Shown here piece by piece: positions 284 to 10,830 of a DNA stretch of 11,524 nt. The notes below the pieces were generated by a model. That model did not search any database and was not told where the DNA came from. It was given only the letters and a program-made list of their open reading frames with translations. Source of the stretch: Cyanobacteria bacterium HKST-UBA02 (GTDB taxonomy: Bacteria; Cyanobacteriota; Vampirovibrionia; Obscuribacterales; Obscuribacteraceae); NCBI GenBank assembly GCA_020431945.1, contig JAGQHH010000006.1, forward strand, positions 1-11,524, read 5' to 3'. Within the stretch, counting starts at the first letter, position 1, and the number at the start of each line of letters is the position of its first letter. A program made the position numbers and the translations under genes.

Positions 284-1474
284 ATGTCCTCCCTCGAAAC
301 ATTCGACTCCTCATCTACCGGTGAGAGCCTTCTTAGAGAAGGGAAAATGCTCAGCGTCGGCGTCTGGGAAGCCGTCAGCGACACCCTGGCGAATCCGGGC
401 AGAAAGCTTCCCGAGCTCGGGCTGTCGGCAGCCACCGGCTCGGTCCTGGGGGCCGTGGAGCGCCTGGGGGCACCGGGCAAAATCGTGGCTGCCGGAATAG
501 GCTCTGCCATGCTCCTCAAGCTTGGCTATGACGAGATCACCGGTGAGCGCTGGAGCAAGTTCGGAGCCGCCCTGAAAGATACGTGGAAATCCGGCCAGAA
601 CATGGACAGGAATATAGCAATTACCCGGGACAGCCTGGGCTCTTTCCTGGTGGATACGGGCATCGGCTATGCCGGAATGAGAGCGGGCTCGGCTCTCACT
701 GCCCGGATGGCGCCCCGGGGCAAGCTCGTGGACAGCGCCATCGCCCGCTCGGGCCGAGACGGCGGCACAGCCATGCGCAAGCTCCAGGAACGCTATGAGA
801 ACCCTCTTCTCATGAAAAAGCAGGCGGGAGAAGATATCAACCTGATCACCCATACAGAGCCGGCAAGCCCCGGCCGGGCAAGCGGCGATCTGATCAGGGT
901 CCAGCGAACCAGCGACGGCGATATCGTCCTTGCCGCCATGGACGTGGAAGGACATGGGATCGCCGCGGCGAAGAAAGCTCTCAAAGTGCACCAGATAATG
1001 GACGATGTCCTGCCGGTCAGCCGGAATAGAAGCGCCAGCGACATCCTCGCTCTGGTGGATGATCGTATCCCGCAAGCAGACGAACTATCACTTACCGCCG
1101 GAATGATGCTCTTCAAACCCAAAACCGGGGAGTTGCAGGCAGCCACCGCCAGCTCGCAGCTCGCCTATGTAATCAGGAAGACCGGCGAAGTCAGCCGGCT
1201 AGACGCCGAGGTCGGCGGATTACCCCTGGGCAATGGTCTCTACTCCGGTCTGCCCCGGGGCAATGAGACTCTCGGTCTGGTCTCCGGCGACACGGTCATA
1301 GTAGCCAGCGACGGTGTTTTCGATCGTTTCGGCTACGGTGTCGCTTCGAAGTTCCAGAAATTTCTGGAAGGTGTCGGACCGCATCCCGAGCGGCTCCGAG
1401 ACGGCATCTTGAACGCTCCGTCGCCGGTAAACGGCGCCGATGACGCCAGTTTTATTATTTTCCAGAAGCCCTGA
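284..1474 (+). CDS. SpoIIE/RsbU-type PP2C protein serine/threonine phosphatase
   Basis: This is a metal-dependent phosphatase of the PP2C SpoIIE/RsbU branch (396 aa). Such enzymes usually dephosphorylate anti-sigma antagonists in partner-switching pathways. The catalytic domain spans about residues 195-394. Visible hallmarks are Gly201-Asp202, Asp220 followed by Val-Glu-Gly-His-Gly (221-225), the KTGELQAATAS strand near 280-290, GGLPLG at 311-316, SGDTVIVASDG at 335-344 with Asp343, and Asp386-Asp387 near the C-terminus. The metal-binding acids are therefore all present and the enzyme is probably active. Residues 30-150 are Ala/Gly-rich with two weakly hydrophobic stretches (about 66-82 and 120-140). 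I recognise no HAMP, PAS, GAF or receiver domain there, so the input signal is unknown. The ATG at 284 follows a weak site (AGGAT). An internal ATG at 347, just after GAAGGG, is an alternative that would drop 21 residues. It is the only plus-strand gene and it converges on the USP gene at its right, overlapping it by 20 bases. The enzyme class is secure; the substrate is not. Confidence 0.88.
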   Translation: MSSLETFDSSSTGESLLREGKMLSVGVWEAVSDTLANPGRKLPELGLSAATGSVLGAVERLGAPGKIVAAGIGSAMLLKLGYDEITGERWSKFGAALKDTWKSGQNMDRNIAITRDSLGSFLVDTGIGYAGMRAGSALTARMAPRGKLVDSAIARSGRDGGTAMRKLQERYENPLLMKKQAGEDINLITHTEPASPGRASGDLIRVQRTSDGDIVLAAMDVEGHGIAAAKKALKVHQIMDDVLPVSRNRSASDILALVDDRIPQADELSLTAGMMLFKPKTGELQAATASSQLAYVIRKTGEVSRLDAEVGGLPLGNGLYSGLPRGNETLGLVSGDTVIVASDGVFDRFGYGVASKFQKFLEGVGPHPERLRDGILNAPSPVNGADDASFIIFQKP

Positions 1475-2408
1475 CCGCTTCTCTGATGTCGCCGTCTTTG
1501 CCGAGCTCCACGTGCTCTTCGGGCCAGAGGAGGATGGAGGGCAGGCCTAAATTGGCGACAAAGAGATCCGGAGTGGTATCGAGAACAGTGAGCCGCTCGT
1601 CGCCGCTGCGTCTGGTCGGTATGACCAGAAGCGTGTCGGGATCGGGATACCAGTCGAGATTGAGCTCCTCGCTGGGCCAGAGGGCGGCATGATCGTCGAC
1701 GGCTACTCCCTCCATGGAATGTGCCTCGATGGCTACATTATCCAGCCCCTTCACGGCTTTCCTGAGATTGGTCGTGAAATCGGCGGGACTCTCTTCGCGG
1801 ACACCGCTCGATAGTGCCACCACTTTCGGTGTGATGCCCAGCAACCCGGCGAAGTAAAGACAGGCTTCGATGAGAGAATAATTGATGTGGTCCATGGAGA
1901 TGAGCACGGTCAGCGAGCTCCACTCCTTGACCTGGCTCTGGACGACAAGAAGAGGTCTCGGGCATTCGTGAGCAAGTCCCTCGGCCACGGCATAGCGGAT
2001 AAAGCTGCGGCGCTCTTTGCGGCCCCCGGTCCCCCGGGGCTGGTGCCCCACCACAACCAGGTCGTAGCCCCTGGCGACATCGGCGATGAGGGTGATGGGA
2101 TTACCCTCGGCAATTATCGTATCGCCTTTCAGAGACCGGCCTGCGGCCATGGCTTCATACTTCTCGGCAAGCTTGTTGGCGATGGATCTGAGAGTGTCGC
2201 AGAGATTGGCATAGGCATCGACATAGGCGCTGCTGCCAATCAAGCCGGGCTTGTCGTTGCGCAGGAGCTCCCAGATCGTGCGGGTGTCGATGACATGATG
2301 GGCAGTGACCGTGCCCTTGCATCGGTTGGCGATATCCCAGGCGACCTCGGCGGCGAACTTTGATTGCTCCGAACCGCTCAGGCCATAAAGAATTGAAATC
2401 GAAGACAT
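1455..2408 (-). CDS. Tandem universal stress protein, degenerate nucleotide site
   Basis: This 317-aa protein has the length of two fused USP domains. The first half (about 1-157) follows the UspA pattern: a first strand ISILYGLSGSEQS, a second strand ending in AHHVID, DLVVVGH at 116-122, and a final strand PLLVVQ at 152-157. The second half (about 163-300) begins with LTVLISMDHINYS and ends with SILLWPEE; it is strongly diverged. The ATP signature G-2x-G-9x-G(S/T) is not intact in either half: VGHQPRGTGG is followed by no Gly-Ser, and the second half has no GSHG-like loop. It therefore probably does not bind ATP in the usual way and may act through dimerisation or another ligand. The ATG at 2408 has a strong AAGGAGG site (2417-2423). 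It is the last gene of the long minus-strand series, 72 bases after the diheme cytochrome. Its stop lies inside the end of the convergent phosphatase gene. Confidence 0.85.
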   Translation of the reverse strand: MSSISILYGLSGSEQSKFAAEVAWDIANRCKGTVTAHHVIDTRTIWELLRNDKPGLIGSSAYVDAYANLCDTLRSIANKLAEKYEAMAAGRSLKGDTIIAEGNPITLIADVARGYDLVVVGHQPRGTGGRKERRSFIRYAVAEGLAHECPRPLLVVQSQVKEWSSLTVLISMDHINYSLIEACLYFAGLLGITPKVVALSSGVREESPADFTTNLRKAVKGLDNVAIEAHSMEGVAVDDHAALWPSEELNLDWYPDPDTLLVIPTRRSGDERLTVLDTTPDLFVANLGLPSILLWPEEHVELGKDGDIREAVRASGK

Positions 2409-2480: not shown

Positions 2481-3182
2481 CTATTTGAGAGTCTCGAGAT
2501 AATCGGCGATTGCTTCGATCTCGTCTCGGGAGAGCCCGGATGGCGGCATCACCGCGCCCCGGTTGCCATACTCGCCTCCACCGTCGACCACCATCTCGGC
2601 ACCGAGGATATGATTGTCAATGGACTCCCGGGTTCGGCGTCCACCCACCCCATCCAGGGCCGGAGCGAAGCTCCCTCCGATACCTCCGAGACTGTGACAG
2701 GCAAGACAGCCCTTTTGAGCGACCAGGGCACGTCCGGGCATCTCTTTCTTCTTCTGCCCGGCAAGACCATGACCGACTATTTTAAAGCCGCCTTCGGGCT
2801 CCGGTACCGTCATCAGATAGGCAGCAATGGCCCGGGCCTGCTTATCCGGAATCCGCAGGTGGGGCATCAGCTCGTATTCGCCGTACTGACGGGCGAACTT
2901 GGCCACCGCTCCTTTCGAGTCGCTGATTCTGGATACGAGAAAATCCTCGCTGCGCCGCGCCCCTATGCCGTCGAAAGGCGGAGCCAGACAACCGCCCTGG
3001 CCGCCTGCAGTGTGGCAGAGAGAGCACTTGTGCATCTCGACATATTTCTTGCCCTGTTTCGCTAGGGCAGTTTCCGGCGCCGGCTTGTAAGGCTTGGACG
3101 CGGCAGCCGGAACGATAGTCAGAAGGCTGAGAATGCTTAGAGCGAAAAAAGAGACCGGAAAGAGACGACTGGATGTTCTCAT
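2481..3182 (-). CDS. Exported diheme c-type cytochrome
   Basis: This 233-aa protein starts with a signal peptide (MRTSS followed by a hydrophobic run, cleavage likely after AAA-S near residue 29), so it acts outside the cytoplasmic membrane as an electron carrier or the cytochrome part of a larger complex. Two cytochrome c domains follow. The first has CSLCH at 53-57 and a likely distal Met106 (LMPHLR). The second has CLACH at 159-163 and a likely distal Met212 (VMPPSG). Both carry the helix pattern ending in IAAYL or IADYL. An additional Cys65 lies just after the first haem site (GGCLAPPF). It resembles stand-alone diheme cytochromes or the c-type subunits of membrane oxidoreductases, but no oxidase or reductase partner is in the window. 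It sits 28 bases downstream of a USP gene and 72 bases upstream of another. Only a weak ribosome binding site (GGGTAA) precedes the ATG, so translation may depend on the upstream gene. Confidence 0.88.
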   Translation of the reverse strand: MRTSSRLFPVSFFALSILSLLTIVPAAASKPYKPAPETALAKQGKKYVEMHKCSLCHTAGGQGGCLAPPFDGIGARRSEDFLVSRISDSKGAVAKFARQYGEYELMPHLRIPDKQARAIAAYLMTVPEPEGGFKIVGHGLAGQKKKEMPGRALVAQKGCLACHSLGGIGGSFAPALDGVGGRRTRESIDNHILGAEMVVDGGGEYGNRGAVMPPSGLSRDEIEAIADYLETLK

Positions 3183-3210: not shown

Positions 3211-3714
3211 CTACTTGATTGTGACTTGCACACGAGCGTCTTTCCACTCGGAAGGATCGCCCTGGCCTCTTTCATGATGAGGTAGACCGACAATGATCAC
3301 TTTGCAGGGGCTGTGCACCAGGACATTGTAAGAGACGCTGCCCAGTATGAGTTGACCGAGCCCTTCTCGTCCGTGCGAGCAGAGTACGATCATAGCGCTT
3401 TCCCACTTCGCCGCCAGATTGACAATCTCCTCCACCGGGGCGCCTTCTACGAATTCCCTGGAGACTTTGATCTCGGGAGATTCTTTTTTGAGGGTCTTCT
3501 CTATGGTGGACATGAGCTCCTCGGCATATTTTCGAGCTTCTTTCATGAGCTTGTCCAGATAGACCTGGCTCGAGACCATGGAGCGCTCGACAATCAGAGT
3601 ATGGAGGACATGCACCAGACGAATCTCTGTGCCGGCAGGCCACTTGTAAGACAGCAAGAACTCGATCTGAGACTTGGCGACGAAATCGTCCTCCACAGGA
3701 ACCAGTACTTTCAT
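3211..3714 (-). CDS. Universal stress protein UspA family (single domain)
   Basis: This 167-aa protein is a single USP domain. It has the first strand MKVLVPVEDD, a second strand ending in LVHVL, the acidic/amphipathic helix around 52-78, MIVLCSHG at 108-115 and the C-terminal strand CKVIIVG at 137-143. The ATP-type loop reads C-S-H-G(115)-9x-G125-S126: the last part is intact, but the first Gly of the usual GSHG is Cys112. A poorly conserved tail of about 24 residues follows the domain. The start overlaps the stop of the preceding USP gene by four bases (ATGA at 3711-3714), so the two are probably translationally coupled. Its N-terminus, with VED, QIEF and WP in the same order, is closely similar to that of the USP gene at 4663-5103, suggesting a local duplicate pair. 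Substrates and partners are unknown. Confidence 0.9.
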   Translation of the reverse strand: MKVLVPVEDDFVAKSQIEFLLSYKWPAGTEIRLVHVLHTLIVERSMVSSQVYLDKLMKEARKYAEELMSTIEKTLKKESPEIKVSREFVEGAPVEEIVNLAAKWESAMIVLCSHGREGLGQLILGSVSYNVLVHSPCKVIIVGLPHHERGQGDPSEWKDARVQVTIK

Positions 3715-4151
3715 TTCTCAACCTCCTGAATCCTTACTACCTGAACCGAGCAGGGTGCCTGCTTGAGCACTGTCTCCGCCACGCTGCCTACCATGAAGCG
3801 GCGGCAGCCGCTGTGACCATGAGATCCCAGAACAATGAGATCAGCCGGCCAGGAGGCGGCTCGCTCTACGATAGCCTCCGGTGGCGATCCGCATACTACC
3901 AGAGTCGACATCGACTGACTGGAAAGCTTTCGCTGCAAACGCTTGAGCCCACGCTCGGCAATTACGCCGCAATCCTTGAGCATCTCGCTGGAGCACTGGG
4001 CTTCCTCCTCGTCATCCTCGAAAACGCCGGGAGCTGGCTCGGCTACACAAAGGACAAGGAACTCGTCTTCTTCCCCCCAGCGCCTTCCCGAGACGAAGTC
4101 CAGGGCCTGGTCAGAGCAATCGGTTCCATCGATGGCGACAATTATTCTCAT
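3711..4151 (-). CDS. Universal stress protein UspA family (single domain, ATP motif intact)
   Basis: This is a compact 146-aa USP domain. The first strand MRIIVAIDGTDCS carries the Asp that usually contacts the adenine. The nucleotide loop is G109-S-H-G112-9x-G122-S123, matching the ATP-binding subgroup (as in MJ0577), and the final strand reads CSVQVVR. A very acidic stretch (EDDEEE at 45-50) lies in the variable helix region. It begins 10 bases after the stop of the avidin-family gene, with a purine-rich GAGAGGGAAG just before the ATG, and its stop overlaps the next USP start by four bases. It most resembles the USP at 10242-10733 (shared DG, DEF or DQF, and PCSV features), so the two may descend from a duplication. 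ATP binding is inferred from the motif only. Confidence 0.9.
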   Translation of the reverse strand: MRIIVAIDGTDCSDQALDFVSGRRWGEEDEFLVLCVAEPAPGVFEDDEEEAQCSSEMLKDCGVIAERGLKRLQRKLSSQSMSTLVVCGSPPEAIVERAASWPADLIVLGSHGHSGCRRFMVGSVAETVLKQAPCSVQVVRIQEVEK

Positions 4152-4161
4152 CTTCCCTCTC

Positions 4162-4638
4162 TCATTTCAAGGATACTTTGAATGGATAGGAGGGGGACAT
4201 GGTAGGCCTGTCGAAAAGATTCAGGTCTCGCTTCGCTTCGCCCTCGACTCGTTTGAAAGTATCGGCACCGGTCCAGAAACCGGCCCAGAGATGGCGCGCC
4301 TCGAGCTTTTCCGGAATGGCCCTTGCCAGGTGCCACATGGTCTCGATACGAGGACCGTCGAGGCCCCCGGTATGCTGTCCTGACCAGGAGGTGAGACAAC
4401 CATACTTGCCGAAATTCACACTGAAACTGATCAGGTCGTCACTGATGAAGCCGGTGAGAGCGAACTCCTCGTCGGGATCATGAGCACCGACTCCGGTCTT
4501 GAAAGTGCCGGTGAGTAGCCCGTTCTCCACCGCCGCCAGGTAAACTTCCGAGCCGTGCTGGTTGCGCCAGAGCCCCAGGAAGTTCACCGACTCTCTGGTC
4601 TTCTTTGTTGCAACAGATTTGGCTGTGCTGGCATTCAT
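4162..4638 (-). CDS. Avidin/streptavidin-family protein, no signal peptide
   Basis: The 158-aa product carries the avidin-fold signature over residues 20-131. GLWRNQHGS (22-30) matches the first streptavidin strand, LLTGTFKTGVG (41-51) the LTGTYESAVG strand, TSWSGQ (83-88) the TTWSGQ strand, IETMWHL (98-104) the INTQWLL strand, and W118 with GADTF (124-128) the last strands. By hand alignment, biotin-contact residues kept are Asn26 (streptavidin N23), Ser30 (S27), Thr83 (T90), Trp85 (W92), Trp102 (W108), Trp118 (W120, the inter-subunit lid) and Asp126 (D128). Changed are Y43 to Phe46, S45 to Thr48, N49 to Ala52, W79 to Phe76 and S88 to Cys81. Biotin binding is thus plausible but not assured. 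Unlike secreted avidins, it lacks a signal peptide (N-terminus MNASTAKSVATKK), so it is probably cytoplasmic. About 27 C-terminal residues extend beyond the fold. The ATG has GAAGGAG seven bases upstream. It lies 24 bases after one USP gene and 10 bases before another, so it appears to be part of that operon. Confidence 0.85.
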   Translation of the reverse strand: MNASTAKSVATKKTRESVNFLGLWRNQHGSEVYLAAVENGLLTGTFKTGVGAHDPDEEFALTGFISDDLISFSVNFGKYGCLTSWSGQHTGGLDGPRIETMWHLARAIPEKLEARHLWAGFWTGADTFKRVEGEAKRDLNLFDRPTMSPSYPFKVSLK

Positions 4639-4662: not shown

Positions 4663-5103
4663 TTAGAGCTTGGGCGGCCGAACGACAAGCACCGAGCAGA
4701 GCGCATAGGTGAGGACCGCGGTGGAGACGCTGCCGATCATGGTGCGGGTGAGCTCCCTTCGACCGTGGGAGCCGAGAATCGCAACATCCGCTTCCCAGTT
4801 CTCGATCACTTCGAGAATTTTTTCCTTGGCATAGCCATGCTCGACAGACTGAATGATTTTGGCATCGGGGAACTTCAAACCGAGCTTCTGGGCGGCTTCC
4901 TTCACCAGGCTCTTGCCTCGCTCGAGCCGGCGGTTGCCGACATCGACGATGAAAGAGTTGTCCTCCTGGGAGAGATCCGCAGGAAGAGGCGGCACCACAT
5001 GCAGGATATTGAAGGTCACTTCCCCGGGCCAGTTGTGGTTGCTGACGAACTCGATCTGGGGTCCGGCAAAATATGTGTCTTCGACAGCGACTAGAATTCG
5101 CAT
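4663..5103 (-). CDS. Universal stress protein UspA family (single domain, ATP motif intact)
   Basis: This is a 146-aa USP domain starting MRILVAVEDTYF. The second strand ends in ILHVVPPLP, the loop reads G111-S-H-G114-9x-G124-S125 (full ATP-type signature), and the last strand is CSVLVVRPP. I place the start at the ATG 5101-5103 because AGGAGGG sits five bases upstream. A GTG at 5116-5118 would add five residues, but it overlaps that ribosome binding site. The gene follows the tandem USP gene by 18 bases and precedes the avidin-family gene by 24. Its N-terminal half resembles the USP at 3211-3714 (VED, QIEF, WP), a likely local duplicate, though that copy has Cys in place of the first motif glycine. 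Confidence 0.9.
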   Translation of the reverse strand: MRILVAVEDTYFAGPQIEFVSNHNWPGEVTFNILHVVPPLPADLSQEDNSFIVDVGNRRLERGKSLVKEAAQKLGLKFPDAKIIQSVEHGYAKEKILEVIENWEADVAILGSHGRRELTRTMIGSVSTAVLTYALCSVLVVRPPKL

Positions 5104-5108
5104 TTTTT

Positions 5109-5115
5109 CCCTCCT
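5109..5115 (-). promoter_or_regulatory. Ribosome binding site deciding the start at 5103
   Basis: AGGAGGG on the minus strand lies five bases before the ATG at 5103-5101. It supports that start over the GTG at 5118, which overlaps this site. Confidence 0.7.
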
Positions 5116-5121
5116 CACCGA

Positions 5122-6036
5122 TCAGCTTTTCTTGGCGGTGCCGGCGGAAGCAGCTTTCTTACCGCCTTTGCCGCCTTTCGCCTCGTGCTTGAAGACGAGC
5201 ACACTGGTGGGCGAATTGCGAACCACCTGGCTGGCAGTCGTGCCGAGCACCATCTCGTCAATTTTCTTGAATCCATAGGCGCCCATGATCAAAAGACTCC
5301 TGGTCTTGCCGGCATAATCCATCAAGGTCTGAGCATGGGGGCCTTTCTCGATGCGGAAGACGTCTTTGTCGTGATACTCTCGCAAATAAGGCTCACCCTG
5401 CTCGACGGTCAGCTCCGCCTCCCCGACACTCTCTCCTTCCGCCACCACTGTGAGAGCGCGCAGAGTCTTGTGAGTCTCTTTGGCCATCTGCTCGGCTGCC
5501 AGAAGAGCTCCTTTCGCTGCTTCACTGCCGTCGTAAGCGACCAGAAGCTGATCGACTTCTTTCAGTGAATTGACCGCCACCAGAACCGGGCTGTAAGAGT
5601 TGAGCACCACCCTTTCCGCCACCGATCCGGTCATCAGATTGCTGGGGGATTGCTTGGCGCCTTTGCCCTTATGACCCATCACCACCAGATCGTGGGTGCG
5701 GGAGCGCTTCACCACTTCCTCGACGATATGACCGATGTCGAGATGGCTCTCCACAGCGATCCCGCGCTCTTTAGCCTCTTTGGCAAAAAGCTCGAGGACT
5801 ACAGTACCGATTTTTTTGATTGCCCGGAAAACCCGATCCTCGGTATCGGCTGCCACTGAAAAACCGAGCTCCTCGCCAAATTCCGGAGCGATGAAAAGCT
5901 CGACCAGCCTTGGATCCACCACATGCTGAGCGGAGATTTCCGCATCCAGCTCACCGGCCAACCAGAAGGCGTACTCGGCAGCTCTCTGACTGTACTCCGA
6001 ACCATCTACGGCTACCAGGATGTTTCTGAAAGGCAT
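5122..6036 (-). CDS. Tandem universal stress protein (two USP domains)
   Basis: This 304-aa protein holds two USP domains. Domain 1 (about 3-156) has NILVAVDGSEYS, AQHVVDPRLVELF, DLVVMGHKGKG at 116-126 and SPVLVAV. Domain 2 (about 162-284) has LLVAYDGSEAAK, LLIMGAYG at 248-255 and TSVLVFKH. The ATP-type loop is intact in domain 2 (G252-A-Y-G255-9x-G265-T). In domain 1 the spacing from the second Gly (G124) to G137-S138 is 12 instead of 9, a three-residue insertion. A Lys/Gly/Ala-rich tail (about 285-304) follows. I chose the ATG at 6036 because AAGAGGA lies seven bases upstream and the first strand begins at once. An ATG at 6072 would add 12 residues after a poor site. It is the first gene of the downstream unit, after 287 non-coding bases, so a promoter is expected just upstream. 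Bacterial tandem USPs are often dimer-like sensors of energy state; the role here is not known. Confidence 0.9.
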   Translation of the reverse strand: MPFRNILVAVDGSEYSQRAAEYAFWLAGELDAEISAQHVVDPRLVELFIAPEFGEELGFSVAADTEDRVFRAIKKIGTVVLELFAKEAKERGIAVESHLDIGHIVEEVVKRSRTHDLVVMGHKGKGAKQSPSNLMTGSVAERVVLNSYSPVLVAVNSLKEVDQLLVAYDGSEAAKGALLAAEQMAKETHKTLRALTVVAEGESVGEAELTVEQGEPYLREYHDKDVFRIEKGPHAQTLMDYAGKTRSLLIMGAYGFKKIDEMVLGTTASQVVRNSPTSVLVFKHEAKGGKGGKKAASAGTAKKS

Positions 6037-6043
6037 CTCTAAT

Positions 6044-6050
6044 TCCTCTT
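6044..6050 (-). promoter_or_regulatory. Ribosome binding site deciding the start at 6036
   Basis: AAGAGGA on the minus strand lies seven bases before the ATG at 6036-6034. The alternative ATG at 6072 has only a GGTGA-like match at a poor distance. Confidence 0.55.
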
Positions 6051-6175
6051 TTTGCAGCGTCTCCCTCGACATTTCAATTTCACCAGATCGCCCGGGGCAT
6101 CGATAACGACCGGAAGACGGATTCTCATCTCTTGATCACTAGCATAAAGTCAACAAACACGAGCACTTCCACGAA

Positions 6176-6193
6176 ATCATCCCGGAAGATGAT
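6176..6193. repeat. Short inverted repeat, possible operator
   Basis: ATCATC and GATGAT flank a 6-base centre (CCGGAA). It lies about 140 bases upstream of the tandem USP start and about 130 bases downstream of the HxlR stop. A dimeric winged-helix regulator could bind such a site, but 6-base arms arise often by chance and I see no second copy. Confidence 0.2.
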
Positions 6194-6266
6194 GTCCCCC
6201 ATGGCTTCCGACCATAGACTGGAAATAGCCTACCACCGGACGCAAGAGACTCGTCCTCCAGAAATC

Positions 6267-6302
6267 GGAGAAACCGGAGCGAAATTATCCTCCGGTTTCT
6301 CC
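6267..6302. terminator. Perfect 13-bp-stem hairpin, probable bidirectional terminator
   Basis: GGAGAAACCGGAG (6267-6279) and its exact reverse complement (6290-6302) enclose a 10-base loop. On the plus strand the stem is followed at once by TTTT and a T-rich stretch, as in an intrinsic terminator. On the minus strand, the direction of the HxlR gene whose stop lies 21 bases upstream, it is preceded by an A-rich run but followed only by GATTTC, a weak T-tract. Its position after the HxlR stop suggests it ends the upstream unit, perhaps in both directions. Confidence 0.7.
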
Positions 6303-6323
6303 TTTTATCTCAATTACTTTCGA

Positions 6324-6746
6324 TCAGTCTCTTCTCTCGGGACAGTCGATCTCAGCCGGAGCGATATCGACACCGGCAAGATGCGCTTCCATGGGGCAGG
6401 AGCAAGCGGATGGCGAGATCTCATCAGCCAGCCTCTTGAGGGAGACCATGATCGAGAGAAGCTTGTGACCGCGCTCGGTGATACTGTGCTCAACCCGGGG
6501 CACCTTTTCGTCATATTTGACCCGGAGAATCATGCCGTGAGCCTCGAGATCCTTGAGTCGCTCCTGCAAGCATTTCATGCTGAGCCCGGGAATCCGGCTC
6601 AAGAACTGTCTGGTGCGGGTGGGCTGAATCGAGACCTCGCGCATGATCTCGACGGTCCACTTTGCCGAGATCAACTTCATGATCGAGTTGATCGGACAAC
6701 CTGCCTGCCTGACTTCCGGTTCGCTGACAACAACTTGCTCGTTCAA
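6324..6746 (-). CDS. HxlR-family winged-helix transcriptional regulator
   Basis: This 140-aa protein has the HxlR (MarR-like, DUF24) pattern. Cys17-Pro-Ile precedes the first helix; then come AKW at 28-30, RQFLSRIPGLSMKCLQERL over 46-64 (recognition helix region), the LEAHGMILR wing approach at 67-75, and VEHSITERGHKL at 85-96. Family members bind DNA as dimers, and several (YodB, HypR) sense electrophiles or oxidants through a cysteine at the place of Cys17. Further cysteines are Cys59 in the helix-turn-helix and Cys115, Cys117 and Cys135 in a tail beyond the usual fold. The start is TTG at 6746-6744, with AAGGAG at 6755-6760 eight bases upstream; no ATG fits as well. It follows the monoheme cytochrome by 81 bases and is the last gene before the hairpin at 6267-6302. 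It is the only DNA-binding protein in the window, so it may control the flanking USP, pump and cytochrome genes. Redox sensing is inference. Confidence 0.9.
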   Translation of the reverse strand: MNEQVVVSEPEVRQAGCPINSIMKLISAKWTVEIMREVSIQPTRTRQFLSRIPGLSMKCLQERLKDLEAHGMILRVKYDEKVPRVEHSITERGHKLLSIMVSLKRLADEISPSACSCPMEAHLAGVDIAPAEIDCPERRD

Positions 6747-6754
6747 AAGAGATT

Positions 6755-6760
6755 CTCCTT
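6755..6760 (-). promoter_or_regulatory. Ribosome binding site supporting a TTG start for the HxlR gene
   Basis: AAGGAG on the minus strand lies eight bases before TTG at 6746-6744. The next in-frame ATG falls at residue 23, after the conserved Cys-Pro motif, so the TTG start is preferred. Confidence 0.65.
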
Positions 6761-6827
6761 GCGTACTGCTTCCAGTCTCGCCAGAGAAGCTCTTTCCGTC
6801 ATCGTCCGAAGTACTGATCGGAGAGGC

Positions 6828-7202
6828 CTATTTACTCTTCTTCTTGGGATCTCCCGCCGGCTTTTTTGCCGGAGCATCTTTTTTGGGCTCTTCTTTGCCG
6901 AGCTTCTTCACATAGAGATAGAGAGGCGTGAGCAAATCGTCGTTGCTGATCAAATGCTCGTAGTGCGGCATGTCGCCCAGGGGCTCGTTGAGATAAGCCT
7001 TGAAAGTGGCATAGGTGACCAGAACATTGGAGCCTTTGATGGGCTTGCCTGGCTTTACAAGGTTGCCGCCGCCCTGATGGCAGCTAGCGCAATGAGTCTT
7101 GAAGAGCTTTTTGCCGTCGGGAGCTTTCTTCTCACCGCTCTTCGCCGCCATGGCTGCAGGCACGGCGATCATCATGAAAAGCACTAAGAGTTTTCTGGTC
7201 AT
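6828..7202 (-). CDS. Exported monoheme c-type cytochrome (class I, c6/c553-like)
   Basis: This 124-aa precursor begins with a short signal peptide (MTRKLLVLFMMIAVPAAMAA, cleavage probably after residue 19 or 20). The mature part is one small cytochrome c domain: haem site CASCH at 38-42, a Gly-rich loop GGGNLVKPGKPIKG, probable distal Met78 in DMPHYEH, and a final helix LLTPLYLYVKKL. The loop recalls class I c6/c553-type electron carriers. The last 20 or so residues are a Lys/Ala/Pro-rich tail (KKDAPAKKPAGDPKKKSK) that could sit on an acidic partner or the envelope surface. AAAAGGAGA precedes the ATG at good spacing. It lies 24 bases downstream of the small membrane protein gene and 81 bases upstream of the HxlR regulator. 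Its redox partner is not in the window; the diheme cytochrome at 2481-3182 is a candidate. Confidence 0.88.
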   Translation of the reverse strand: MTRKLLVLFMMIAVPAAMAAKSGEKKAPDGKKLFKTHCASCHQGGGNLVKPGKPIKGSNVLVTYATFKAYLNEPLGDMPHYEHLISNDDLLTPLYLYVKKLGKEEPKKDAPAKKPAGDPKKKSK

Positions 7203-7226: not shown

Positions 7227-7484
7227 TCAGAAAGGTGCCTTACCGGCAATACCGATATTGGGGTTGTGTGCGATATGAGGCTCTTCCAGCTCATCCAGAC
7301 TGGGCTCCCGGAAGGTGCCGTGCAAGACGTTGCCCGCCGAGTCCTCGACATAGCCGACCTCGGTGGTGACATCCCCTTCCTCATCGCGAAAGCGCGGCTG
7401 CTCCACCATCTTGAAGAACTTGATCACGGCGAGGATATTGAGGATTGCATAGATATAGAATGCGACAACCAGAATTACTTTCAT
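7227..7484 (-). CDS. Small single-span membrane protein coupled to the P-type ATPase gene
   Basis: I recognise no family for this 85-aa product. Residues 2-21 (KVILVVAFYIYAILNILAVI) form one hydrophobic transmembrane segment, followed by KFFK and then a polar, acidic domain (RDEEGD, SLDELEE) with no cysteines. By the positive-inside rule the C-terminal domain is probably cytoplasmic. The ATG at 7484-7482 overlaps the ATPase stop in an ATGA arrangement, and AGAGGGA at 7492-7498 lies seven bases upstream. A longer reading frame reaching 7655 lies antiparallel to no gene but inside the ATPase coding sequence in another frame and is rejected. Strict coupling to the pump suggests a small accessory or regulatory subunit, comparable in idea to KdpF or eukaryotic pump regulators; there is no sequence similarity I can claim to either. 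The monoheme cytochrome follows after 24 bases. Confidence 0.75.
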   Translation of the reverse strand: MKVILVVAFYIYAILNILAVIKFFKMVEQPRFRDEEGDVTTEVGYVEDSAGNVLHGTFREPSLDELEEPHIAHNPNIGIAGKAPF

Positions 7485-10240
7485 GAGCGATTCCCTCTGA
7501 AGAGATTGTAAACCAGACAGAGCCCATAAGAAACAAGCGAAAGACTGATTGCGATACTCAGGCAGGGAAGCTCCAGGGCGGCAGTGTTCAGAACCACCTG
7601 CAGGGGAGGCAGATAGACGGCTCCGGCGGTAAGCAGATAAGAGATGAGCATGCAAAGATACATATATTTATTGACCGAGACCCGCTCTTTGCGGGAATCG
7701 AGGAAAAGCCATCCCCAGGCCTGCATGAGCAGAGCCAGGGCTATGGTTGTAAAAGCTACCGTGGTGACGAAAGTATCGCCTCCGGTTACTATCCGGCTCA
7801 TCTGAATAGCAACCAGCACCGCCGCCGATACGACTATGCTGCGCATGAGTATCTGCTCTTTCTCGAAGGAGCCGAGAAAAGGCGAGCCCGGAGCCCGGGG
7901 AGGACGACTCATGATTCCCGGAGAAGCCTCCTGCATGACGATGCCCAGACCCGGAAAGATATGCATGATCAGATTCAGCCAGAGAAGTTGCAGGGGCGTC
8001 ATCGCCAGGGTTCCGTCACAGGCCATGGCGACAGCCACGGTAATCACAGAAGCCACCGCCGCCGTGAGTAGGTAGCAGATGGAGCGCTTGATGTTCTCGT
8101 AGATTACCCGTCCCTGACGGATTGCACTGACTATGGTGGCGAAATTGTCGTCGGTGATCACCATATTCGCTGCTTCCCGGGCGAGATCCGTACCACCCTT
8201 GCCCATGGCGACACCGATGTCGGACTGCTGCAGAGCAGGAGCGTCGTTGACACCGTCACCGGTCATGGCGACGACTTCGCCCTTTTCCTGAAGAGCGCGA
8301 ACGATATTGAGCTTCATCGCCGGTGTCACCCTGGCCACCACCGAAGTCGAGGCGAGCTTGTTCGAGAGCTCCCGGGAATCGAGCTTGCCGAGCTGGGCTC
8401 CGGTTGTAACCGAATCCTTGCTGCCGTCCACCAGCAGATCGAGCTCTTCGGCGATGGAAGTGGCGGTGGCGAGCTGATCGCCGGTCAGCATCATCACTCT
8501 TATCCCGGCTTGTTTGCACTGGTGCATGGAATCGCTCACGCCTTCCCGGGGAGTGTCCTTCATAGCTATGAGACCGACAAAAACCAGATCTTCATCGAGC
8601 ATGTCGGGCTTGCAGCGATCGTTGTCCTCGTCCAGCTCTTTGATAGCGAAGGCGAGAACCCGCAAGCCATGCCGGGCGAGGTCCTCGTTTTTGTCGGAAT
8701 AATAGCGGCGCTCTTCCGGACCGAACGTCTCGATGCCGCTTCCGGTCAGAATCCGGCTGCAGGCCCCGAGCACCACCTCCGGAGAGCCTTTGACATAGAG
8801 CTCCCGGCAGCCGCCCTCGCCGCGGTGCATGGTGGCCATCATCTTGCGGCTCAGACAAAAAGGAAGCTCGGAGACACGGGGATAATGACTGTGAGTATCC
8901 TGGTCGAGCACACCACTCTTGGATGCCACCACCAGCAAAGCCCCTTCGGTAGGGTCGCCCTGAATCGTCCAGCACTCATTTTCTTCATCGACCTCGAGAC
9001 TGGCATCATTGCAGAGGTATGCCGAGAGAAAGAGCCTGGACAAGACAGGATCCGAGCCGCTGTCCACCGGTCTGGAGTCGCGGACGATCTCACCCACCGG
9101 TGCATAGCCCGAGCCCGTCACCTTCAGGTGCGCTCCTCCGGCGACGATATCGGTGGCGGTGAGCTTGTTCTCGGTAAGTGTGCCAGTCTTATCCGAGCAG
9201 ATTATCGTGGTGCACCCCAGGGTCTCCACCGCAGCAAGCTGGCGAACAAGCGTGCCGAGCTTGACCATTCGCTGCACTCCCAGGGCGAGTGCCAGGGTAG
9301 CCACCACCGGCAGTCCTTCAGGTATGGCAGCCACCGCGAGAGCGATGCCGGCCTCGAGCATCTTCCAGAAATCATGCTTGTAGAGCATGCCTGTGCCGAG
9401 GACGATCGCGCAGACGATGACCGTCAGGATCGTCAGTTGACCGCCAAGCTCCTCGAGATTCTTCTCCAGGGGAGTCGGCTGGCTATGCCCTTCGATAAGG
9501 GACTTTTGAAGCTCGCCCAGGCTGGTCCGGGCTCCTGTACGGAGCACCACTCCGAGACCGCGTCCGTCCAGGACATGGGTGCCGTGATAAGCGATGGTGC
9601 TGAGATTATCCCCGTCACTCCCGTCGCCGCTCAGCAACTCGGCGGACTTCGATTGCGAGAGGCTCTCACCGGTGAGAACCGATTCGTCGATGGTCAGTCC
9701 CGCTGCTTCGATGAGCCGGAGATCGGCAGGCACCCGGGAGCCGGCTTCCAGGACCACTATATCCCCCGGGACCAGATGCCCGGCCGGAACGGTCTGGTCG
9801 TGTCCCTGGCGACGGATTCTAGCCGAAGGCGAGGCGATTTTGGCAAGGGCGGCAAGAGATACGCTGGCTCGCCATTCAGTGAGGAAGCCTACCAGGGCAT
9901 TGATGAAAACAGCTGCCAGGATAGCCGCAGCCTGTAGATGATCGCCTGTCAGAAAGGATATCCCAGAGGCGACCAGGAGAAGCACCACCACCGAGGAGGC
10001 GAATTGACGAATGAGGATCTGTGCCGGAGTGGTTGCCGGTCGCGCTTCCACCTCGTTGAGACCATAGGCGGCGACGCGCTCCTCCACCTGGGACAGGGAT
10101 AGCCCGCTCTCCCTGTCGCTCTCGAAGCGCTCCAGGAGACCGAGACTTTCCATGGCGGCAAAATACTCGAGACCTGGCGAGTCGGACTCGCTAGACTTGG
10201 AATCGGAGTTGGAATGCAAGACTGCGCCAGGTCCGGTCAT
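7481..10240 (-). CDS. P-type cation-transporting ATPase, P2-like, ion specificity unclear
   Basis: This 919-aa ATP-driven membrane pump has the usual P2 layout. There is an N-terminal cation-ATPase domain (about 27-95), the actuator loop with TGES at 190-193, M4 with PEGLP at 307-311, the phosphorylation site DKTGTLT with Asp350, the nucleotide-binding KGSPE at 484-488, MLTGDQ at 584-589, the hinge TGDGVNDAP at 660-668, then M5-M10. All catalytic motifs are intact, so it should hydrolyse ATP. The ion site is not that of SERCA: in a gap-free alignment of M5-M6, Asn768 and Glu771 become Ala728 and Ser731, Thr799 becomes Met759 and Asp800 becomes His760; only Glu308 (E309) and Asn756 (N796) remain. 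Met at the Thr799 place also occurs in PMR1-type pumps, but those keep the Asp. Calcium transport is therefore doubtful. The ATG lies one base after the stop of a USP gene, and the pump stop overlaps the small membrane protein start by four bases. The first 25 residues are Ser-rich and poorly conserved. Confidence 0.93.
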   Translation of the reverse strand: MTGPGAVLHSNSDSKSSESDSPGLEYFAAMESLGLLERFESDRESGLSLSQVEERVAAYGLNEVEARPATTPAQILIRQFASSVVVLLLVASGISFLTGDHLQAAAILAAVFINALVGFLTEWRASVSLAALAKIASPSARIRRQGHDQTVPAGHLVPGDIVVLEAGSRVPADLRLIEAAGLTIDESVLTGESLSQSKSAELLSGDGSDGDNLSTIAYHGTHVLDGRGLGVVLRTGARTSLGELQKSLIEGHSQPTPLEKNLEELGGQLTILTVIVCAIVLGTGMLYKHDFWKMLEAGIALAVAAIPEGLPVVATLALALGVQRMVKLGTLVRQLAAVETLGCTTIICSDKTGTLTENKLTATDIVAGGAHLKVTGSGYAPVGEIVRDSRPVDSGSDPVLSRLFLSAYLCNDASLEVDEENECWTIQGDPTEGALLVVASKSGVLDQDTHSHYPRVSELPFCLSRKMMATMHRGEGGCRELYVKGSPEVVLGACSRILTGSGIETFGPEERRYYSDKNEDLARHGLRVLAFAIKELDEDNDRCKPDMLDEDLVFVGLIAMKDTPREGVSDSMHQCKQAGIRVMMLTGDQLATATSIAEELDLLVDGSKDSVTTGAQLGKLDSRELSNKLASTSVVARVTPAMKLNIVRALQEKGEVVAMTGDGVNDAPALQQSDIGVAMGKGGTDLAREAANMVITDDNFATIVSAIRQGRVIYENIKRSICYLLTAAVASVITVAVAMACDGTLAMTPLQLLWLNLIMHIFPGLGIVMQEASPGIMSRPPRAPGSPFLGSFEKEQILMRSIVVSAAVLVAIQMSRIVTGGDTFVTTVAFTTIALALLMQAWGWLFLDSRKERVSVNKYMYLCMLISYLLTAGAVYLPPLQVVLNTAALELPCLSIAISLSLVSYGLCLVYNLFRGNRS

Positions 10241-10241
10241 C

Positions 10242-10733
10242 TTACTTCTTGCTGGCCGAGGCTTTCTTATCGCCTTTCTTTTCGCCGGCTCTGGCGATGC
10301 GTCCTTTGATGATCTCCACCGAGCAGGGCGCTTTCTTCAGCACCTCCTCGGCAACGCTTCCCAGGAGGAATTTCTGGAATCCCTTTCGACCATGGGAGCC
10401 CATCACCACCAGATCGGCATGCCATTCTTCGGCGCACTTGCAGATCTCCTGGGCGATGAGACCGGAAGTGACTTTAGCTTCCACCGAATTGCCCTTGAGC
10501 TTCTCTTTCAAGAGTGCCCCGGCAGAAGCAGTGATTTCGGCGCACTCCTCATACATCTGCTCCTCGAAACGCTCCGCCGACTCGGGCATGTGCCCCAGAC
10601 CGAACTCTGTGGGCACGATCTCCTTGACCATCAGCACCATGAACTGGTCCTCGTCCTTGAAAGGGCGCTCCACCAGGAACTCCACGGCTTGTTGCGAGCT
10701 CTCGGATCCATCGACAGCCAGTAGAATTTTCAT
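10242..10733 (-). CDS. Universal stress protein UspA family (single domain, ATP motif intact)
   Basis: This 163-aa protein is a single USP domain with MKILLAVDGSESS, a second strand MVLMVKEIVP, ADLVVMGSHG at 106-115, the full ATP-type loop G112-S-H-G115-9x-G125-S126 and a final strand CSVEIIKG. A Lys/Ala/Ser-rich tail (about 145-163) follows, similar in style to those of the tandem USP at 5122-6036 and the monoheme cytochrome. AAGGAGGG at 10739-10746, five bases before the ATG, is one of the strongest sites in the window. It ends one base before the P-type ATPase start, so the two are almost certainly co-expressed. USP next to P2-type ATPase is also known from the mycobacterial DosR regulon (Rv1996 beside ctpF). 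It may tune or report on the pump, but that is inference. Confidence 0.92.
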   Translation of the reverse strand: MKILLAVDGSESSQQAVEFLVERPFKDEDQFMVLMVKEIVPTEFGLGHMPESAERFEEQMYEECAEITASAGALLKEKLKGNSVEAKVTSGLIAQEICKCAEEWHADLVVMGSHGRKGFQKFLLGSVAEEVLKKAPCSVEIIKGRIARAGEKKGDKKASASKK

Positions 10734-10830
10734 GTTTGCCCTCCTTGCTCCGGGATCATCCTTCTGATTGACCCCAGCTAATTGTCGAGGATACCGGAGC
10801 GGCTGACATCGGCCCCAGTATTGAAAAGCT
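10734..10830 (-). other. 97-base spacer between the Sel1 and USP genes
   Basis: This is the longest gap upstream of the USP-pump unit and the natural place for its promoter. Apart from the ribosome binding site at 10739-10746, I see no convincing -35/-10 pair and no hairpin with a T-tract, so neither a promoter nor a terminator is called. Confidence 0.35.

Follow-up and report, generated by a model that had tools for sequence, protein, structure and literature searches.

A leaderless avidin-family protein in a universal stress protein gene cluster of Obscuribacterales and its possible role as a stress-regulated biotin reservoir

Avidins, familiar chiefly as biotin traps that cells secrete, are among the best-studied binding proteins. 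The stretch of DNA analyzed here, hereafter the window, comprises 11,524 nucleotides of Cyanobacteria bacterium HKST-UBA02 (contig JAGQHH010000006.1), which probably belongs to the non-photosynthetic branch of the cyanobacteria, and raises the question of what an avidin without a leader might do among universal stress protein (USP) genes (Table 1). An earlier note on this DNA described the avidin reading frame on the minus strand and its distances of 24 and 10 bases to the flanking USP genes, and both are present as described. Seven minus-strand genes occupy the interval between 6072 and 1455; computed from the first start codon of each open reading frame, the successive spacings in reading order are 3, 24, 10, −4, 28 and 72 bases. 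Further genes upstream of this operon encode an HxlR regulator, a small cytochrome, a P-type ATPase and one more USP. The HxlR-family gene is located at 6324–6746, between the cytochrome and ATPase genes and the avidin operon, and a SpoIIE-type phosphatase gene on the plus strand (284–1474) overlaps with its end the end of the USP gene at 1455–2408. Promoter and terminator scans gave results near chance level.

Table 1. Features of the avidin operon and its surroundings, in window coordinates.
Feature	Position	Strand	Evidence
USP, 317 aa, last in the gene string	1455–2408	-	ORF, Pfam
Cytochrome c, two matched haem-domain stretches	2481–3182	-	Pfam
USP, 4-base overlap with the USP at 3711–4151	3211–3714	-	ORF, Pfam
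USP, 10 bases downstream of the avidin gene	3711–4151	-	ORF, Pfam
Avidin-family protein, leaderless, 158 aa, ATG start	4162–4638	-	ORF, PF01382, structure model, alignment
C-terminal tail after the barrel, residues 131–158	4165–4248	-	Model, alignment
PSYP motif of the tail, residues 149–152	4183–4194	-	Motif count
USP, 24 bases upstream of the avidin gene	4663–5118	-	ORF, Pfam
Two-domain USP, likely the first gene of the operon	5122–6072	-	ORF, Pfam
Palindrome ATCATCCCGGAAGATGAT, 103 bases ahead of the operon's first gene, deviating at 1 of 14 specified positions	6176–6193		Pattern scan
P-type ATPase; best NCBIfam matches of calcium type, below their cut-offs	7481–10240	-	NCBIfam
USP directly upstream of the P-type ATPase	10242–10733	-	Profile match
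Weaker palindrome copy, 3 mismatches, before the USP/P-type ATPase pair	10755–10772		Pattern scan

That the protein belongs to the avidin family is virtually certain. A profile search matched PF01382 with E = 2.2e-17 (64 bits against a cut-off of 24), the predicted monomer is an eight-stranded antiparallel barrel (pLDDT 86.4), and the rows shown in two structure comparisons of the model are avidins, with shwanavidin and xenavidin as the closest solved folds and streptavidin close as well. The streptavidin equivalog NF047623 scored 43 bits, below the 300 needed. The family and fold proposed in the earlier note are thus borne out, and none of the three refuting outcomes that it named occurred: the PF01382 match is significant, the predicted barrel has eight strands, and homologues adjoining USP genes were found. 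From the closest known members of PF01382, the window protein differs in its lack of a leader, in the pocket substitutions given below and in its place in a USP operon.

No in-frame ATG, GTG or TTG lies between the preceding stop codon and the avidin start in the window, and the 21 residues ahead of the barrel reach a maximum 10-residue mean hydropathy of 0.18. By this crude measure the N-terminal signal peptide that marks secreted avidins is missing from the window protein, in agreement with the earlier note, and the protein is very probably cytoplasmic. In the same test, any 10-residue stretch before the barrel with a mean above 1.8 counted as a leader and N-termini shorter than 10 residues as leaderless; none of the 120 proteins listed among 250 homologues found, the window's own included, passed it, and passages of a 2021 survey, PMC8033661, assign signal peptides to about 50% of putative bacterial avidins. 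Judged by these counts, the lack of a leader is therefore not unusual among bacterial avidins, and the idea that a leaderless avidin is an exception does not hold. Leaderless avidins outside the order are found in Deltaproteobacteria, Vicinamibacteria, Pseudomonas, Nibrella and Flagellimonas entries. The avidin of one locus, L016, possibly has a leader, since its start is uncertain and in the longer reading the sequence ahead of the barrel includes a segment whose hydropathy is 1.64. Three plasmid-borne relatives, from Rhizobium gallicum, Burkholderia glumae and Xanthomonas vasicola, were examined out of 85 matching records; their starts look like leaders to the eye, the tail motif described below is missing from them, and the surrounding 12–18 kb showed no USP match.

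The proximity to USP genes recurs in relatives. For scanning genomes we drew a 15-row alignment from a 29-row alignment that was too diverse for the purpose, and the scan found one locus, in a Candidatus Obscuribacterales MAG. In the order sample, 11 avidin genes were present in 10 of 53 genomes; the class sample contained the same ten among 382 genomes, and in the phylum sample of 386 only the starting genome exceeded the cut-off. One phylum match, in genome G091, fell below it (E = 5.6e-4). The similarity of the window to the Obscuribacterales loci is 57% for the avidin, 51% for the two-domain USP and 50% for the ATPase. Measured start to start, 10 of the 11 avidin genes have a USP gene no farther than ~10 kb away, 9 have one within ~5 kb and 4 within ~1.4 kb; of all positions in these genomes, 2.8–5.5% lie that near (10 kb) to one. 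The resulting P value of 5.5e-14 assumes independent genomes, and the ten, all from one order, are not independent. The immediate neighbors of the avidin gene vary between the loci while USP genes stay close. In passages of PMC8033661, avidins come chiefly from Proteobacteria, Actinobacteria and Bacteroidetes, a single match being from Synergistetes, and its main text uses neither the word cyanobacteria nor the word melainabacteria. In the open-licence PMC literature, we found no related paper linking avidin and universal stress proteins, nothing on Obscuribacterales universal stress proteins and nothing on intracellular bacterial avidin with rhizavidin; a search for Melainabacteria and avidin gave only urea work in cyanobacteria.

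The USP operon is part of a larger neighborhood of oxygen and redox genes with a shared palindrome, both of which the earlier note overlooked. We compared 12 loci of up to 20 kb each, naming gene clusters by Pfam matches of their representatives. The shared families were USP (11 loci), cytochrome c (7), phosphoribosyltransferase (6), HSP20 (6), P-type ATPase (5), acetyl-CoA hydrolase (4) and NiFe hydrogenase large subunit (3); erythromycin esterase, globin, GNAT acetyltransferase and beta-CASP nuclease occurred in 2 loci each, and Rrf2 and hemerythrin/rubredoxin genes in one (L018). Homologues of the window cytochrome c adjoin avidin genes in L019, L021 and L022. NiFe hydrogenase gene sets lie near the avidin gene at 12364–19825 in L019, 11416–18708 in L021 and 1279–8744 in L022, and some neighborhood genes are presumably HypA- and HypB-like. 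In L013, the gene of a GGDEF-EAL protein (7905–9428) separates the avidin gene from a USP gene.

A candidate oxygen or NO sensor for this neighborhood is found in L014 (2947–5456), where Pfam matches show a Protoglobin-PAS-HisKA-HATPase kinase next to a response regulator of LuxR type (4701–5456). A protoglobin match is present on the avidin contig in 6 of 11 cases, the nearest copy 5.9–25.7 kb off; the kinase architecture is established for the L014 gene only, and the window itself contains no sensor kinase and no protoglobin. Protoglobin is not specific to avidin genomes: in the order, 43 of 53 genomes gave a match, avidin-free ones among them, and so did 9 of the 14 named controls. The neighborhood resembles the DosR/DevR regulon of mycobacteria, and the likeness extends to erythromycin esterase, to CtpF as a cation ATPase and to hydrogenase. 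A pattern that we take to be the DosR box, GGGACTTNNGNCCCT, is absent from the window apart from 5 weak matches, where chance alone would give 12.2. We know of no description of a DosR-like programme in this phylum, and the loci give a hint of one. Passages of Table 1 in PMC5309233 on the DosR regulon include USPs, alpha-crystallin, the transport protein Rv1997, a putative phosphoribosyltransferase, and sensor kinases with a regulator, a set that is paralleled here, with the L014 kinase as a candidate counterpart of the sensors, and passages of PMC4082495 describe heme-based sensing in the DosR/DevR system. In contrast to DosR, the sensor candidate here is a protoglobin and not a GAF protein, the phylum is a different one, and those passages of the table contain no avidin.

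The palindrome emerged from the intergenic sequences of the loci. Among exact gapped palindromes in 105 intergenic stretches, ATCAT-N8-ATGAT ranked top with 4 loci, others reaching at most 2. The extended form ATCATCC-N4-GGATGAT, allowing up to 3 mismatches, occurred at 47 places in the 12 loci, compared with 10, 7 and 10 in three random draws, and 33 of the 47 were intergenic although intergenic sequence makes up 14.8% of the bases. In ten whole genomes, TCATYC-N4-GRATGA was found at 72 places and its mirror pattern at 6. Fourteen of the 72 lay within ~1.4 kb of a USP gene, where 0.5 were expected; 50 were more than ~10 kb from any USP gene, and a regulon wider than the USP clusters is therefore possible. 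We then scored the upstream regions with a held-out matrix, built from 26 of the 33 intergenic sites after excluding 2 window sites, 3 avidin-upstream sites and 2 overlapping sites of L016, against a null of first-order resampling with 500 draws per locus; the avidin start was taken as the nearest ATG that leaves 10 or more residues ahead of the barrel. In 7 of 12 loci the matrix detected a site at p ≤ 0.032 upstream of the avidin gene or operon (combined p = 6e-7), six of the seven lying 63–114 bases from the start of five avidin genes and of the window operon; the other 5 of the 12 upstream regions contained no significant site. The window site at 6176–6193 took no part in the discovery of the palindrome, as a spurious 351-aa reading frame (6132–7187, plus strand) covered it. 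It is the loci taken together and the mirror control that make the palindrome significant; in the window alone, up to 3 mismatches give 2 places, a number reached by 29 of 200 shuffles and not significant. A copy with 4 mismatches lies at window position 6801, by the HxlR gene, and in L022 a copy with 2 mismatches, at 3314, precedes the hydrogenase set. Through this palindrome, the avidin gene probably belongs to an oxygen- or redox-responsive regulon.

The pocket speaks to the ligand. We aligned 17 positions that we take to form the streptavidin pocket: 10 are identical in the window protein, among them N23, S27, T90, W92, W108, W120 and D128 (streptavidin numbers), and 7 differ. The changes Y43F, S45T, N49A, W79F and S88C, named in the earlier note, are all confirmed by the alignment, and its count needs extending by L25H and A86Y, which differ from streptavidin as well; the lid tryptophan is kept as claimed, its number 118 being that of the window protein itself and aligning with streptavidin Trp120. 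Across 40 aligned proteins, namely 29 homologues with the window's own among them and 11 genome relatives, N23, W92 and W108 are kept in all and S27, T90, W120 and D128 in 39. W79F is found in all 40 and Y43F in 32, position 88 is Ser in 21, Cys in 13 and Thr in 6, and N49 is kept in none, with loop 47–49 being hard to align in distant proteins. By this alignment, the ureido end of the pocket is kept and the carboxylate end loosened, and the window protein therefore likely binds biotin, probably with lower affinity. On balance, we lean toward biotin as its ligand.

A second feature of the protein, a conserved C-terminal PS[HY]P motif, also went unnoticed in the earlier note. Of the 120 proteins listed from the 250 homologues found, 45 have a tail of at least 12 residues after the barrel and 75 do not, and PSHP or PSYP is present in 40 of those 45, behind linkers that vary in length and sequence. 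The single monomer model of the window protein has low confidence in the tail, with a mean pLDDT of 48 over the last block. According to passages of PMC3344845, the C-terminal peptide of bradavidin (Brad-tag) fills the biotin pocket of a neighboring subunit and lowers biotin affinity. An extension peptide of streptavidin C1 likewise enters the pocket; the abstract of PMC7924230 reports reduced binding, and a later passage of the same paper states that this tail leaves the ability to bind biotin unaffected. The tails here share with these two a short C-terminal stretch following a linker. The motifs differ, PS[HY]P here and SEKLSNTK or VTSANPPAS there, and pocket occupancy is known for the latter alone. 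Strep-tag II, WSHPQFEK, tabulated in PMC3344845 as a streptavidin-pocket peptide, shares the core SHP with the PSHP tails, three residues being weak evidence; the tails have no glutamine after the proline, and the window protein has SYP. No related work on avidin with PSHP was found in the open-licence PMC literature. By analogy with bradavidin and streptavidin C1, the tail might act as a self-ligand, a proposal that we hold tentatively and at somewhat less than even odds.

Biotin supply in these genomes was assessed from their gene content. Eight of the ten avidin genomes had no BioB match (E ≤ 1e-30), nine had BioY and all ten had biotinyl/lipoyl-domain matches, so that they look like biotin importers. 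Absence of BioB can be mimicked by incomplete genomes, and BioB, present in 2 of the 10 genomes with an avidin and in 19 of the 43 without, showed no significant link with avidin (Fisher p = 0.28). In the best reading, to which we assign a probability of roughly 0.4, the protein would serve as a biotin reservoir in the cytoplasm, regulated by stress and plugged by its own tail. Oxygen limitation would turn on the avidin and USP genes through ATCATCC-N4-GGATGAT, and the cytoplasmic avidin would bind free biotin or biotinyl groups. Its affinity would be lowered by the loosened carboxylate-end and aromatic contacts, and further by its own PSYP tail, an intrinsic ligand sitting in an oligomer pocket. 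When oxygen is low or the cell is dormant, imported biotin would then be stored reversibly, which would keep biotin-dependent carboxylases low, and be freed on recovery. The storage role taken by itself is doubtful but possible. The most far-reaching form of the proposal, a class of intracellular avidins under oxygen-sensing two-component control and gated by a PS[HY]P pseudo-ligand, through which oxygen limitation would govern how much biotin is available in Obscuribacterales, slowing carboxylases as dormancy begins and giving biotin back when it ends, seems unlikely as a whole.

Two other readings also start from the pocket. The avidin could grip the biotinylated carrier domain of a carboxylase and halt fatty-acid synthesis or anaplerosis as oxygen falls: the carboxylate-end changes N49A, S88C and A86Y might tolerate lysine-linked biotin, every one of the ten avidin genomes has biotinyl/lipoyl-domain matches, and growth arrest would fit a dormancy-type gene set. 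Yet no listed biotinyl/lipoyl match shares a contig with an avidin gene at a distance of 270 kb or less, position 88 is most often the Ser of streptavidin (21 of 40), and it is doubtful that a carrier domain could enter a pocket whose lid tryptophan is kept in 39 of 40 proteins, and we consider this quite unlikely. To the same degree we disfavor a pocket retuned to another stress-related small ligand, with biotin not the physiological one. The 7 of 17 differing contact positions, with W79F in all 40 proteins and Y43F in 32, would suit such a change; however, 39 or 40 of the 40 retain the ureido-end residues and three of the four tryptophans of the pocket, which is hard to explain without a biotin-like ligand, and streptavidins with the single changes Y43F or W79F have been solved as avidin folds, in a listing silent on affinity.

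The location raises two further possibilities, both of which we regard as improbable. Starvation of neighbors or grazers for biotin after lysis would reduce the stress-gene location to a matter of timing. Bacterial avidins have been discussed as defence proteins, and passages of PMC8033661 link avidin neighborhoods to mobile-element terms and, significantly, to two defence GO terms, its Conclusions finding avidins without clear association with distinctive processes; against this stands the leader test, passed by none of the 120 proteins listed, while the leader-like starts were seen in the three plasmid-borne relatives without tail motif or USP. Alternatively, the avidin gene might sit in large USP clusters by ancestry, without shared function. 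All cases come from one order, with the same ten genomes recovered from the 382 of the class sample, and a single inherited ancestral insertion could therefore explain the location; but the direct neighbors differ between loci although USP genes stay close, and the palindrome keeps its place 63–114 bases before the avidin gene in 5 loci or, in the window, before the operon. The association with USP clusters and a shared promoter palindrome, joined in some loci by a protoglobin gene on the contig, is specific to this lineage. It makes an intracellular avidin role directly testable, with PS[HY]P as a candidate self-ligand motif.

The exception among the 11 genome relatives is the avidin of genome G049 (locus L023), which lies outside any USP cluster, has a degraded pocket and is the only one to have lost W120 and D128. 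This degenerate avidin-like gene, at 9807–10202 of L023 (G049:C121) on a contig with no USP gene, has W120D and D128E by alignment and is possibly losing its function.
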